A stretch of DNA of 64,000 bases. Source: Pleurocapsa sp. PCC 7319 (lineage in GTDB: Bacteria > Cyanobacteriota > Cyanobacteriia > Cyanobacteriales > Xenococcaceae). The stretch's first letter is position 1. The number at the start of each line of letters is the position of its first letter. Location: contig NZ_KB235922.1 of assembly GCF_000332195.1 (NCBI RefSeq), positions 3,879,322 through 3,943,321 of the forward strand. The letters are read 5' to 3'. Position numbers and translations under genes: made by a program. Below the pieces are notes generated by a model. That model was not told where the DNA came from. It was given only the letters and a program-made list of their open reading frames with translations, and made no database searches. Below are positions 54,177-59,365 of this stretch, piece after piece.

Positions 54177-55424
54177 ATGGTAAATATTATGAATAAATCG
54201 TTAATTGCAACTTTAGGTGCTGTTACTAGCGGATTATTATTACTCCAGTCTTGTAGTTCTAGTAATAATATTATTAACAAAGACACCATCTCTAATTTAG
54301 AAGATTCTAACGATAGCGCGGTTGTAGTCCCAGAGGTAAAACCAGAGGCAAAACCAGATCCTCTAGCAGAGTTTAATTTAGAAAAATCAGATCGTTTAAC
54401 TAGTACAGCTAAAGTATTAGCAGGAATCAAACTAGAAGATGATAGCAGTTTTTTAGACTTAGAAAAGGCTCCTATTTGGCAAGCTCATCATGATGCCCTG
54501 GCTAGTTCTTGGGCCAAATTAGAAACCCAGCAAATATCAAAAGTCAGAGAATGGACAGCTACTGAACTAAAAGAGATTAATGCTAATAATCCCACGGTAT
54601 TTTATCCTTTTAGTGGTCCTGATTTTCTCTATGGTTATTCCTTATTTCCCCAAGCCAAAGAAATGGTCTTAGTGGGATTAGAACCTGTTGGTTCTGTGCC
54701 TAATTTAACTAGTCTGAATAGCACTCAGTTCAATTCTAAATTGCAGGAAGTGAGAAATTCTCTCTATGCAATTCTCCAATTTAGTTTCTTTCGTACCAAT
54801 GATATGAAAGTGGACTTACAACAACAGGGAGTCTTGCCAATTCTGTATGTCTTTATGGCACGTACTAATAATCGTATTCTCGATGTAGAGTATGTTGGTT
54901 TAAATCAGGAAGCTGAAATTAAACCCTTGAAAGATGATTTAATTCCTGGAGTCAAAATTGCTTATGTTCCTGAAGGAGAACAAGACCCTCGTACTCTCTA
55001 TTATTTTTCTACAGATTTATCTAATGATGGTCTGAATAAGCATCCTGAAATAGCTGAATTTGTCGCTAAATTAGATAATCCCATAACTTATCTTAAAGCT
55101 GCTTCCTATCTAATGTATTACGATAGCTTTACTCAGATCAAAGATACAATTTTGTCTCAAAGTAGTTATCTATTGCAAGATGATTCAGGTATGCCCTTAA
55201 GCTCATTTAACAATAATCAATGGGATTTAGAGTTTTATGGCAATTACACGACTCCTATCGCTTTATTTGGCAATCGTTATCAACCCAATCTGAGACAAAT
55301 CTATACTTCAGATCGAGGTGAGATTAAACCCTTGAATTTTGGTATTGGTTATCAATTTGAAGTCAACAATTCTAACTTGATGTTGGCAAAAGCTAAGGAT
55401 GATTCTTTTGTTAAACCCGAGTAA
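54177..55424 (+). CDS. Lipoprotein of unknown function
   Basis: 415 residues with a lipoprotein signal, MVNIMNKSLIATLGAVTSGL then LLLQSC; the Cys at residue 26 is the expected lipid site. A second ATG (54189) would also serve. The mature protein starts with a Ser/Asn linker and an acidic KPEAKPDPLAEF stretch. It then has a globular domain with TVFYPFSGPDFLYGYSLFP around residue 140, repeated YLMYYDSF-type aromatic motifs and a C-terminal NNQWDLEFYGNYTTPIALFGNRYQPNL. I recognise no family. Likely anchored in the outer or plasma membrane. Confidence 0.75.
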   Translation: MVNIMNKSLIATLGAVTSGLLLLQSCSSSNNIINKDTISNLEDSNDSAVVVPEVKPEAKPDPLAEFNLEKSDRLTSTAKVLAGIKLEDDSSFLDLEKAPIWQAHHDALASSWAKLETQQISKVREWTATELKEINANNPTVFYPFSGPDFLYGYSLFPQAKEMVLVGLEPVGSVPNLTSLNSTQFNSKLQEVRNSLYAILQFSFFRTNDMKVDLQQQGVLPILYVFMARTNNRILDVEYVGLNQEAEIKPLKDDLIPGVKIAYVPEGEQDPRTLYYFSTDLSNDGLNKHPEIAEFVAKLDNPITYLKAASYLMYYDSFTQIKDTILSQSSYLLQDDSGMPLSSFNNNQWDLEFYGNYTTPIALFGNRYQPNLRQIYTSDRGEIKPLNFGIGYQFEVNNSNLMLAKAKDDSFVKPE

Positions 55425-55768: not shown

Positions 55769-57892
55769 TTGCTCAGAAAACTAAGTATTCAGTCAAAACT
55801 AATGCTAATACTATTAGTGGTTAGTATCAGCTCTATTTTAGCGATCGCCTTTATCGGTTATGGCAGTGGTCAGCAAGCTCTTAATAATAGTATTTTTAAT
55901 CAATTAATTAGTCTTAAAGAATCCAAAGCATATCAGATTGAAACTTATTTTAAAAATATTCGCGCTGAAGTACAAACTATGAGCGAAAATCCTAGTGTGA
56001 TTGAGACCATGCAAGGATTTAAACAGGCATATCAAGAACTAGAATCAACATCAATTCAACCTGAATGGGATGAAAAACTTAAAACCTTTTATGCTCAAGA
56101 ATTTCTGCCCAAATTAGCCGAAAATATTCCAGAAAATCAGTTGCAGTCTTTTGAGCTACCTACTGAAAATGCTGCTCGTTATTTGCAATACTATTACATT
56201 GCTAATAATGCCAATGCTATTGGAAAAAAGTATTTTCTCGATAACCCTTTAGATAAAAGCAACTATAGTCGTCTGCACCAACAAATTCAATCTATCTATC
56301 GCAATTTGATCGTGAAATTCGGCTACTATGACTTGTTACTAATTGATACCGAAACAGGAAATATTGTCTATTCAGTAGAGAAAGAGGTTGATTTTGCTAC
56401 CAATCTTTATCAAGGAGCTTATTCTAAGAGTAATTTAGCTCGGGTAGTCCAGGCAGTTCGTCAAAAAAACGAACCCAGTATGGTAGCGATCGCCGATTTT
56501 GAAGCCTACCGTCCTTCCTACGCTGAACCTGCCGCTTTTATTGCTAGTCCCATTTTTGATGGTACAAAATTAATTGGTGTACTTGCTCTACAAATCTCTA
56601 TTGATGAGATTGATCAAGTAATGACGGGGGATGGCAATTGGCAACGTCATGGTTTAGGTAAGTCAGGAGAAACTTATTTAGTCGGTTCAGATTATGGGAT
56701 GAGAGGGGACTCTCGTTTTCTAGTGGAAGATAAGGAAGCTTATCTCCAGGCAATAGCAGCTAAAGGTATTACAGAGGAAGATTTAGAACAGATCAAAAAA
56801 TTTGATACTTCGATTTTATATCAAAAAGTTAATACTCCCCCTGTCAAAAGAGCCTTTGAAGGAGAGACGGGAACAGATATCACTGAAGACTATCGGGGAG
56901 TGGTCACTTTAAACGCATACCGACCACTGGATATTGATGGTTTGGACTGGGCAATCATTGCTCAGATTGATCGTGATGAAGCTTTTGCGCCGATTATGGC
57001 TTTTCAACATCGAGTACTTTTTTCCACGATCGCAATTGTTTTCCTCGTTACGGCGATCGCTGGCATATTTTCTCATTATTTCGTGCGTCCGATCTACAGT
57101 CTGATCAGGGGTTTTCGGCAAGTAGAACAAGGACAAACTGATGTGGTAGTAAAAGTAAAAGCTAAAGATGAATTTCGTGAACTAGGTAACTCTTTTAACG
57201 AAATGGTAAGCGGTCTCAATCATCAGCAACAGTTAGTCATACAAAGAGAGCAAGAAAACGACAAGTTACTCTTAAGTATTTTGCCAGAATCAGTAGCCCA
57301 GAGACTCAAAAAGGGAGAAAAAATTATTGCCGATAATTTTGCTAGTGTCACAGTTTTGTTTGCCGATTTACATGGATTTAATGAACTAGCCAAAAGTTTA
57401 TCTGCCCAGGAAACAGTTTCTTTTCTTAATAGCTTAGTTACAGCTTTTGACGAAGCAGCAGAAAGCTATGGAGTAGAAAAAGTGAAAACTATTGGTAGTG
57501 GCTATATGGCAGTTAGTGGCTTATCCATATCCCGTATCGATCATGCCAAGAGAGTGGTTGATTTCGCGATCGAAATGATGTGGATTCTGGATCGTTTTAA
57601 CCGCGAACGTCAGACCAATCTTAAACTAAGTGTTGGTATTAATTCAGGGGAAGTAGTGGCAGGCATCGTGGGACAAAGTAAATTTAGCTACGACCTTTGG
57701 GGAGATACGGTTAATATCGCTCATTATCTTCAGGTTCACAGTAGTAGTGATTCTATTCACGTAACAGATAATGTTCACGCTAGTCTAGGGGATCTATATG
57801 ATTTTGAGTCAGTTCCAGTTTTGGAACTTGCTGACAAAGGAAACTTGATAGCTTGGTCGGTTGTAGTAGAAAAAAAGGCTATTAATTATTGA
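55769..57892 (+). CDS. Class III adenylate cyclase-like sensor, catalytic site degenerate
   Basis: 707 residues, TTG start with AAAGGA upstream. A membrane helix is at about 11-31, and a large extracytoplasmic Cache-like sensor at 35-410 (YFLDNP, FDGTKLIGVLALQIS, SGETYLVG). A second helix follows at about 415-437, HAMP at 438-490 and a cyclase domain at 525-690. D533 (FADLHGF) is kept, but the second metal Asp is S577 (TIGSGYM instead of TIGDxYM). N649 is kept, but the transition-state Arg is Y653 (VNIAHYL instead of VNIASRM). The adenine-recognition residues K573 and D642 are present. It resembles a C2-type half site, so homodimer activity is doubtful. The channel gene follows after three bases. 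Confidence 0.88.
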   Translation: MLRKLSIQSKLMLILLVVSISSILAIAFIGYGSGQQALNNSIFNQLISLKESKAYQIETYFKNIRAEVQTMSENPSVIETMQGFKQAYQELESTSIQPEWDEKLKTFYAQEFLPKLAENIPENQLQSFELPTENAARYLQYYYIANNANAIGKKYFLDNPLDKSNYSRLHQQIQSIYRNLIVKFGYYDLLLIDTETGNIVYSVEKEVDFATNLYQGAYSKSNLARVVQAVRQKNEPSMVAIADFEAYRPSYAEPAAFIASPIFDGTKLIGVLALQISIDEIDQVMTGDGNWQRHGLGKSGETYLVGSDYGMRGDSRFLVEDKEAYLQAIAAKGITEEDLEQIKKFDTSILYQKVNTPPVKRAFEGETGTDITEDYRGVVTLNAYRPLDIDGLDWAIIAQIDRDEAFAPIMAFQHRVLFSTIAIVFLVTAIAGIFSHYFVRPIYSLIRGFRQVEQGQTDVVVKVKAKDEFRELGNSFNEMVSGLNHQQQLVIQREQENDKLLLSILPESVAQRLKKGEKIIADNFASVTVLFADLHGFNELAKSLSAQETVSFLNSLVTAFDEAAESYGVEKVKTIGSGYMAVSGLSISRIDHAKRVVDFAIEMMWILDRFNRERQTNLKLSVGINSGEVVAGIVGQSKFSYDLWGDTVNIAHYLQVHSSSDSIHVTDNVHASLGDLYDFESVPVLELADKGNLIAWSVVVEKKAINY

Positions 57893-57895
57893 TTT

Positions 57896-59365
57896 ATGGC
57901 AGAATCTTTTTGGCAAGAAGCATCTTTTATTTGGGGATTAATCCTAATTATCGTCTTTCCGCTACTGATCGTAGTTATTGGAGAGATTGGTATCTGGTTG
58001 CAAAAGCGCAATCGCTCTTTAGCAGCTACTTTGCAAATTGTTCGCAATCTAGTTTTACCTAGTTTGGCTCTGTTTATTCTCTTTACTAAAGTCTTAGCCT
58101 TTCCTAGCGATCGCCCCTTACTTCAGATTATAGAAACTGGGGTCGGTGTCTGTGCCATTCACGCGGTTCTCTCTTTAGCTAACGCCCTACTATTTGGAGA
58201 AGTAAAAGTGGGGACTTGGCAAGCTAATACGCCCAAACTATTCCGCGATTTAATTCGCTTTTTTCTGATCGCAGTGGGGACGGCTTTAGTTCTCTCCGTA
58301 GTCTGGAAAGCTGATTTAGGAGGACTAATTGCTGCCTTAGGAGTTGGTTCTCTAGTTTTGGGTTTGGCTCTCCAAGATACTTTAGGTAACTTGTTTTCGG
58401 GTATTGCTTTGCTGTTTGAACGTCCTTTTAGTTTAGGAGATTGGTTAGAAATTAATGGAGTTAAAGGGAAGGTAATTGAGATTAACTGGCGTTCGGTACA
58501 CCTGCTGACTTATGACCTAGAAATTTTGGTGATTCCTAACGGGATTTTGGGCAAGGAAATATTCCGTAATTATCGTTCCCCGCGCAAGCTGCGCTCTGAA
58601 CCTATAGATATTGGTTTTTCTTATAAAGATCCTCCTAATAAGGTTAAACAAGTATTGATAGAAACGGCTTTAGCTACTGAAGGAGTATTGGACGACCCCA
58701 AACCTATAGTTAGAACTATGGAATATAGTGATTTTTCGATTAATTACCGAGTCAAACTATTTTTGGCTGACTACGATCAAATTCCGCAAATAAGAGATGA
58801 GTTTATCACTCGTATCTGGTACGCTGCCAATCGATATAATTTGACTATTCCCTTTCCAATTCGTACTCTTTATCATCAACCTGTTTCTAAATCTAATCCA
58901 GAGTCAAAATTAGCTCAATTTGTTGATTATCTGCGTGGTTTCTCTACTTTTGCCAGTATCGATCAAGAAGCTTTAGAACAACTGGCTCAAGATGCTGTCA
59001 TTAAGCATTTTGGTATTGGAGAGCCAGCGATCGCCAGAGGAACCAAGCACACGGGTCTTTATTTAATTATTACTGGTCAAGCACAATTATCTGTAACGAA
59101 TAATTTTGGTCAAGAAATAGAAATTGCCACCCTTTCTAAAGGGGAGTTTTTTGGTGAGATGGCATTACTAACTCAGTCCGATTTATCTAGTTCCCTTTTG
59201 ATATCAGCAATGGAAGACTTGACAGTACTAGTGCTAAAAATCGAAGCCGTACAACTTATTCTGCATCAAATTCCCAGACTAGCCCAAGAAATTGGCGCAG
59301 TAATTGAGACTCGTCGTCAAGCGATCAATTTGGCTCAAAAGACTATTGAACAGGGCACAATTTAA
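57896..59365 (+). CDS. MscS-type channel with C-terminal cyclic-nucleotide-binding domain
   Basis: 489 residues. Three helices lie in residues 10-105. The pore helix and MscS core, from about 125-290, contain LIAALGVGSLVLGLALQDTLGNLFSGIALL, PFSLGDWLEI and VIPNGILGKEIF. A cyclic-nucleotide-binding domain spans about 345-475: GLYLIITGQAQLSV, then GEFFGEMALLTQSDLSSSLLISAMED. The phosphate-binding cassette keeps the Glu (GEM) but has no Arg in the place of the usual PRSA. It begins three bases after the cyclase-like gene, so the two are co-transcribed. It matches the known bCNG layout; whether it binds cNMP is doubtful. Confidence 0.9.
   Translation: MAESFWQEASFIWGLILIIVFPLLIVVIGEIGIWLQKRNRSLAATLQIVRNLVLPSLALFILFTKVLAFPSDRPLLQIIETGVGVCAIHAVLSLANALLFGEVKVGTWQANTPKLFRDLIRFFLIAVGTALVLSVVWKADLGGLIAALGVGSLVLGLALQDTLGNLFSGIALLFERPFSLGDWLEINGVKGKVIEINWRSVHLLTYDLEILVIPNGILGKEIFRNYRSPRKLRSEPIDIGFSYKDPPNKVKQVLIETALATEGVLDDPKPIVRTMEYSDFSINYRVKLFLADYDQIPQIRDEFITRIWYAANRYNLTIPFPIRTLYHQPVSKSNPESKLAQFVDYLRGFSTFASIDQEALEQLAQDAVIKHFGIGEPAIARGTKHTGLYLIITGQAQLSVTNNFGQEIEIATLSKGEFFGEMALLTQSDLSSSLLISAMEDLTVLVLKIEAVQLILHQIPRLAQEIGAVIETRRQAINLAQKTIEQGTI

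Follow-up and report, generated by a model that had tools for sequence, protein, structure and literature searches.

Two adjacent genes at positions 55769-59365 of a 64,000-nucleotide stretch of the Pleurocapsa sp. PCC 7319 genome (contig NZ_KB235922.1; the whole stretch is hereafter the window) probably form a receptor-channel module that works independently of cyclic nucleotide monophosphates (cNMPs) and is built from retired second-messenger parts. The first gene encodes a membrane receptor ending in a class III cyclase domain whose active site is incomplete, and the second encodes an MscS-like channel ending in a cNMP-binding-like domain. We give a probability of about 0.6 to the reading in which this pseudocyclase relays the signal of the receptor's Cache domain to the channel, contact being the likeliest route. 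The analysis directly establishes the architecture of the two proteins, their pairing, the lack of a full active site in 85 relatives, the near absence of an Arg from the channel's phosphate-binding cassette, purifying selection on the cyclase domain and the co-divergence of the partners.

A cyclase-like sensor and its neighboring channel

The sensor gene (55769-57892; all features described here are on the + strand) encodes 707 amino acids. According to its open reading frame (ORF), Pfam matches and an AlphaFold model (predicted local distance difference test, pLDDT, 87.2; predicted template modelling score, pTM, 0.60), these comprise a transmembrane helix (TM1), a periplasmic dCache region, a second transmembrane helix (TM2), a HAMP domain and the class III pseudocyclase. 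The ORF starts with TTG, and the codon directly before it is a stop. The dCache region spans approximately residues 33-405 (55865-56983), with limits estimated from Pfam and the helix and strand pattern of the model; its dCache_1 match (residues 185-398) scores 43.8 bits, slightly under the cut-off of 45. The HAMP domain (residues 434-484; 57068-57220) scores 35.6 bits against a cut-off of 25, with an E-value of 1e-8. The Guanylate_cyc match (residues 522-696; 57332-57856) reaches 160.9 bits and 3e-47 against a cut-off of 21.9 bits, so the class III fold is present, and Foldseek aligned this part of the model with the chains of 5oyh at template modelling (TM) scores of 0.90-0.92 of target.

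Our residue mapping rests on alignment to adenylyl cyclase 5 (AC5), and the roles given to the aligned residues are those described in the cyclase literature. The sensor retains the first metal-binding Asp (D533, 57365-57367), the adenine-binding Lys (K573, 57485-57487) and Asp (D642, 57692-57694), and the ribose Asn (N649). Ser is found where the second metal Asp is expected (S577, 57497-57499), and Tyr where the catalytic, transition-state Arg is expected (Y653, 57725-57727). Thus, the protein has the adenine Lys and Asp of a competent class III cyclase and lacks both its full pair of metal Asp residues and its Arg. Judged by these residues, the sensor cyclase cannot be expected to make cyclic AMP (cAMP) as a homodimer. 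The initial annotation had likened the domain to the C2 half of mammalian adenylyl cyclases on the strength of K573 and D642. These two residues do align with their C2 counterparts, as does N649, and Ser577 is itself C2-like, aligning both with the metal Asp of C1 and with a Ser in the C2 half of AC5; the likeness breaks down at Tyr653, which falls on the C2 Arg.

The channel gene (57896-59365) follows in the same frame after three bases (57893-57895), so the predicted arrangement of a class III cyclase-like receptor three bases upstream of an MscS-cNMP channel is borne out by the ORFs and Pfam. Its 489-residue product has the beta and C-terminal domains and the pore helix of the MscS superfamily; MS_channel_2nd, MS_channel_3rd and cNMP_binding exceed their Pfam cut-offs, and MS_channel_1st falls slightly under (22.4 against 23.1). 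The AlphaFold model, computed as a single chain (pLDDT 82.8, pTM 0.41), resembles MscS 2vv5 with a TM score of 0.71 of target, and YnaI is among the sequence relatives. Five model helices, whose membrane role was read by eye, cover residues 9-37, 42-66, 74-100, 114-137 and 141-175 (57920-58420). The C-terminal cNMP-binding-like domain (residues 370-454; 59003-59257; 46.5 bits against a cut-off of 27.5) is of the kind that defines bCNG channels, and the Arg of their cassette is missing. We found no Arg or Lys in the phosphate-binding cassette (residues 419-438; 59150-59209), and alignment to PKG places the cassette Arg position at Leu430, or near Ser432 if the two extra residues of the loop are gapped. 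Therefore, the AC5 and PKG alignments confirm the Ser577 and Tyr653 substitutions and the Arg-less cassette proposed initially. By its residues, the window channel should not bind cNMP well.

Loss of the active site and persistence of the pair among relatives

We surveyed 291 genomes of the class, 27 genomes of the window's family and 13 loci from genome contigs. The 291-genome search returned many matches to the cyclase domain, only a subset of which extended over the whole length. Of the reading frames that combine sensor and cyclase, we scored 88 and retained 85 after removing two near copies (L188 and L054, of L187 and L057, respectively) and L056, which has Asp, Asp and Arg together with an ambiguous Asn codon and no channel seen in its 8.5 kb stretch. 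None of the 85 combines the second metal Asp with the Arg: 50 have the Asp without the Arg, 12 the Arg without the Asp, and 23 neither. Control cyclases were complete in 22 of 24 rows, and the two exceptions are fragments of the pseudocyclase family; these controls, like the control channels below, were hand-picked from search listings rather than drawn at random. In the deep lineages the active-site residues vary widely and the gene pair persists.

The members come almost entirely from cyanobacterial genomes. L056 is from a metagenome-assembled genome (MAG) labelled Marinovum; it also has dCache and HAMP domains, its ambiguous codon is AAN, and it takes a basal position in the family's tree. 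A much diverged copy of the pair (L058:4919-8490) was seen in a MAG labelled Campylobacteraceae, through either transfer or a binning error. The loss is common to the 85 scored relatives and channel matches occur in 35 of the 130 genera sampled, which rules out a quirk of the Pleurocapsa genome. As far as these sequences tell, active-site loss is the rule of an old, mostly cyanobacterial family and not private decay.

Other residues have become nearly fixed in the family. R595 is present in 98% of the 85 pseudocyclases (Ala in 95% of 20 active cyclases) and W696 in 96% (Tyr in 100% of the active set), while E496 and N497 occur in 92% and 89%, respectively, and in none of the 20. Such conservation is as expected if the cyclase domain has acquired a new task. 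Family-specific residues cluster on helix 592-614, which holds 8 of 31 positions (P=0.009, post hoc and uncorrected), a hint of an interface.

An MscS-cNMP gene lies alongside the sensor in 75 of the 85 cases (71 downstream, 3 upstream and 1 divergent), and in the downstream cases the median offset between the adjoining stop-bounded frames is 4 bases. Among the matches listed for the 291 genomes, which were read by eye and reach down to approximately 1e-52 for the sensor, so that weak sensor pieces could be missed, 63 genomes have both genes, three only a sensor and five only a channel match. One of the three sensors is joined to a chemoreceptor domain (G212) and the others come from incomplete genomes (G285, 72% complete; G267, 77% complete); the channel-only genomes are one in which the contig ends inside the cyclase (G061) and four with more distant channels. 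Within the window's family, sensor and channel are each found in 11 of 27 genomes, ten of them shared, and the odd two (G312 and G309) each hold one contig-end piece in an assembly that is 81-82% complete. Patchy presence as a unit is the strongest sign in the sequences that sensor and channel would work together. On one contig (L091:105-5930), a cyclase, a channel and a second sensor-cyclase copy split over two frames stand in a row. We found no description of a pseudocyclase sensor paired with an MscS-cNMP channel in the open-licence PubMed Central (PMC) literature.

In the linked channels the cassette Arg position was scored as FG plus 11 residues, counted from F; three channels (L075, L105 and L189) were too short. 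The remaining 72 have Ser (64), Thr (3), Leu (2), Phe (1), Val (1) or Arg (1, in L193) at this position. The window channel and that of L185 have Leu by this simple count, followed by three Ser. The L193 channel adjoins a cyclase with several lost residues, and its Arg was either regained or retained. No cassette Arg was found in any of the eight channels examined among nine unlinked partners of family sensors.

MscS-cNMP channels outside the family carry the cassette Arg in 26 of 35 cases and Cys, Tyr or Ile in the other nine. Six of these channels (L258, L262, L265, L273, L275 and L205) have a same-strand cyclase that overlaps them or lies within 900 bases, as in L258:2917-6167, L262:836-4086, L273:202-4158 and L275:2439-6569. 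All six cyclases carry a CHASE2 domain and the full Asp, Asp, Asn and Arg set, and all six channels have the cassette Arg, compared to 1 of 72 channels linked to a pseudocyclase; L258 and L262 belong to the same genus, which limits the independence of the six. An intact cyclase also lies on the opposite strand from two further channels with the Arg (L272 and L282). The CHASE2-cyclase/MscS-cNMP pair is apparently a working cAMP-channel operon. The sample thus contains whole pairs and hollow pairs, with almost nothing between. This alignment of homologous pairs upholds the initial suggestion that the residues were lost jointly, with no intact cyclase among 85 and no cassette Arg in 71 of 72 linked channels. 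Because the joint loss in the family stands against six of six intact CHASE2 pairs, the pair likely no longer runs on its own cAMP or cyclic GMP (cGMP).

Selection, descent and co-divergence

The pseudocyclase domain is under purifying selection. The ratio of nonsynonymous to synonymous substitution rates (dN/dS) for the cyclase domain was computable in 19 of 21 pairs, with synonymous sites often near saturation, and is 0.239 between the window and L185 and 0.016-0.182 in the 18 other pairs. A fold held by selection and an active site lost across relatives mark the sensor cyclase as a probable pseudoenzyme.

A first tree placed the distant cyclase L002 inside the family, and a second was built without L002 and without the six key columns. 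In the second tree the channel family forms one side of a branch with a Shimodaira-Hasegawa-like approximate likelihood ratio test (SH-aLRT) value of 99, although the tree has long branches and the joins among deep lineages are unsure. Scored as a single label, retention of the full residue set changes once on this tree, with L056 counted as keeping it and its ambiguous codon taken as Asn. The five residues counted singly change four to seven times each, and the six changes of the second metal Asp and seven of the Arg rule out an origin of the loss in any single residue.

Cyclase and channel distances are correlated with r=0.95 over 67 pairs, and the highest of 500 shuffles gave 0.33. The cyclase correlates less well with its own sensor (0.895) than with the channel. 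In genomes with several pairs, a protein's own partner is the best fit for 13 of 16 paralogues.

The nearest relative of the window by both sensor (73%) and channel (78%) is L053:665-3406, in which the dCache-HAMP sensor is fused in frame to the MscS-cNMP channel and the cyclase domain is missing. Relative to the window, an in-frame deletion of 885 bases joins the end of HAMP to approximately residue 70 of the channel. By our own reading, three membrane helices would then follow the cytoplasmic HAMP domain, which would invert the channel, and because of this topology the fusion may be broken or mis-assembled. It stands on one contig of one MAG (an equally long contig is G293:C404, 5611 bases). 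Given the inconsistent topology and the single contig, we do not use it as proof of direct coupling. The same sensor half also occurs on proteins of sulphur bacteria and one cyanobacterium (L061, L062, L063, L064 and L139), and all three of those tested (L061, L063 and L139) carry a chemoreceptor signalling domain. Since the sensor half is also used on chemoreceptors, the signal that it sends through HAMP should be conformational.

Upstream of the sensor gene in the window, an ORF at 54177-55424 begins like a lipoprotein and matches nothing in Pfam.

Candidate mechanisms and known systems

We infer ligand sensing, loss of cyclase activity, physical contact and an effect on gating. A solute would bind the periplasmic dCache domain, and the signal would travel through TM2, HAMP and the signalling helix to the dimer of cyclase domains, which would keep its fold and be unable to cyclise nucleotide. 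A changed conformation of this dimer, and no diffusible product, would then bias the MscS-like channel, most likely through contact of the pseudocyclase dimer with the C-terminal cNMP-like ring. Nucleotide binding without turnover could be a second input where the Lys, Asp and metal residues are kept, and would not be one in the deep lineages that lack them. Contact is the simplest account because no cAMP is expected from the homodimer, no complementary half of the family was found in 71 genomes and the channel should, by its residues, be poor at binding cNMP. The initial annotation had already suggested direct contact or another ligand as the route, a plausible proposal. In its most specific form, to which we give slightly less than an even chance, the pair would be a two-piece ligand-gated channel: the pseudocyclase dimer of a Cache receptor docks on and gates an Arg-less cNMP-like ring with no second messenger, and the pair may descend from an operon in which a functional cyclase served a cNMP-gated channel, the messenger having been lost and the contact kept.

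Several points weigh against a cNMP-independent module that signals by contact. The stoichiometry is awkward, with a dimeric sensor facing a heptameric channel. The window's cyclase domain, with its dN/dS of 0.239, is less constrained than the domains of two active control pairs (0.043 and 0.047; the ratio was not computable for two further active control pairs). Common descent inflates the co-divergence and co-occurrence figures. No channel lies alongside 10 of the 85 sensors; nine of these have one on another contig or some kb off, so operon linkage is not indispensable, and for the tenth (L108, in the 72% complete genome G285) no channel was found. The cyclase domain is absent from L053 and would be dispensable if that protein works. 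Unpaired channels can also lack the cassette Arg, as the nine Arg-less channels outside the family show (L266, L267, L271, L274, L279, L281, L283, L286 and L289), around each of which no cyclase was seen within a few kb. L193:7202-8656 is the sole scored linked channel with the Arg; relatives intact in only one partner, which the initial annotation took as a sign against joint loss, are thus seen once on the channel side and in none of the 85 on the cyclase side. Finally, the cassette Glu after FG is retained in 58 of 72 linked channels, and as Glu421 in the window.

The pseudocyclase could instead be a nucleotide sensor that takes up ATP together with one or two metals, does not turn it over, and by this binding sets the state of the channel, so that energy state is reported together with the Cache ligand. 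Across the 85 relatives the adenine Lys is kept in 68, the adenine Asp in 70, Asp or Glu at the first metal position in 62 and Asp at the second in 50, and a regulatory, non-catalytic nucleotide site is described for heterodimeric rhodopsin cyclases (PMC12264004). However, L131, L132 and L134 have lost the Lys, Asp and metal residues and the pair persists, so such sensing is not common to all, and the window protein itself lacks one metal ligand. We consider this explanation unlikely.

It is less probable still that the channel binds cAMP or cGMP made elsewhere, through a cassette that needs no Arg, and that its neighbor only modulates it. One cyclase of the cell (L002) carries the Asp, Asp, Asn and Arg set, and in at least three other cNMP-domain proteins (L033, L034 and L035) the cassette Arg looks canonical, so cNMP is probably present, and the retained Glu would suit such binding. 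Nevertheless, the Arg is absent from 71 of 72 linked channels and the Glu from 14, and loss of the cassette Arg strongly lowers cNMP affinity in known domains.

Joint cAMP synthesis by the sensor and another cyclase, in the manner of mammalian C1 and C2, seems very improbable. Clade A, with Ser577 and in some members the Arg, looks like a C2 half, and clade B, with the two metal Asp residues and no Arg, like a C1 half, but among the copies scored the two kinds of member (D,D and N,R) were found together in none of 71 genomes, and we rejected a heterodimer of complementary family halves on that ground. The one other class III cyclase match in the window genome is GAF-linked and 29% identical, and a cAMP signal would be expected to depend on the Arg that is missing from the channel. 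That the cyclase domain is a decaying remnant heading for loss is scarcely credible: active-site residues drift, L053 lacks the whole domain and the window's dN/dS exceeds that of two active controls, but the ratio is well under 1 in all 19 computed pairs and sensor-plus-cyclase frames with new conserved residues persist in 85 relatives.

If the pair does work by contact, many cyanobacteria have turned a second-messenger circuit into direct coupling of receptor and channel, abandoning the enzyme's site as well as the receptor's. Prokaryotes would then have a counterpart of pseudoenzyme signalling and of cNMP-like domains that have ceased to bind cNMP, and a Cache domain would have a concrete way to control a mechanosensitive channel.

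The closest known channels are those of the bCNG branch of the MscS superfamily, in which the MscS domains are followed by a C-terminal cNMP-binding-like domain. The window channel shares this layout, but it lacks the cassette Arg and is paired with a cyclase-like sensor whose site is incomplete. The bCNG branch was reportedly described by Caldwell in 2010 and Malcolm in 2012, both of whom PMC4560390 cites. Foldseek finds the same catalytic fold in class III adenylyl cyclases (structures such as 7yzk, Rv1625c). Complete ones, such as the 20 controls, keep Asp, Asp, Asn and Arg (in L056 the Asn codon is ambiguous), whereas Asp and Arg never occur together in the 85 family members. Non-catalytic sites with a regulatory role are likewise known from the NeoR/RGC heterodimeric rhodopsin guanylyl cyclases and mammalian C1/C2, but these retain one working site (PMC12264004), and no complementary half of the family described here was found in 71 genomes. 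The CHASE2-cyclase/MscS-cNMP pairs likewise place a cyclase gene next to an MscS-cNMP gene in cyanobacteria, with another sensor and cyclase subtype; their intact active site and cassette Arg make them look like the working cAMP version and a matching control for the pseudocyclase pairs.

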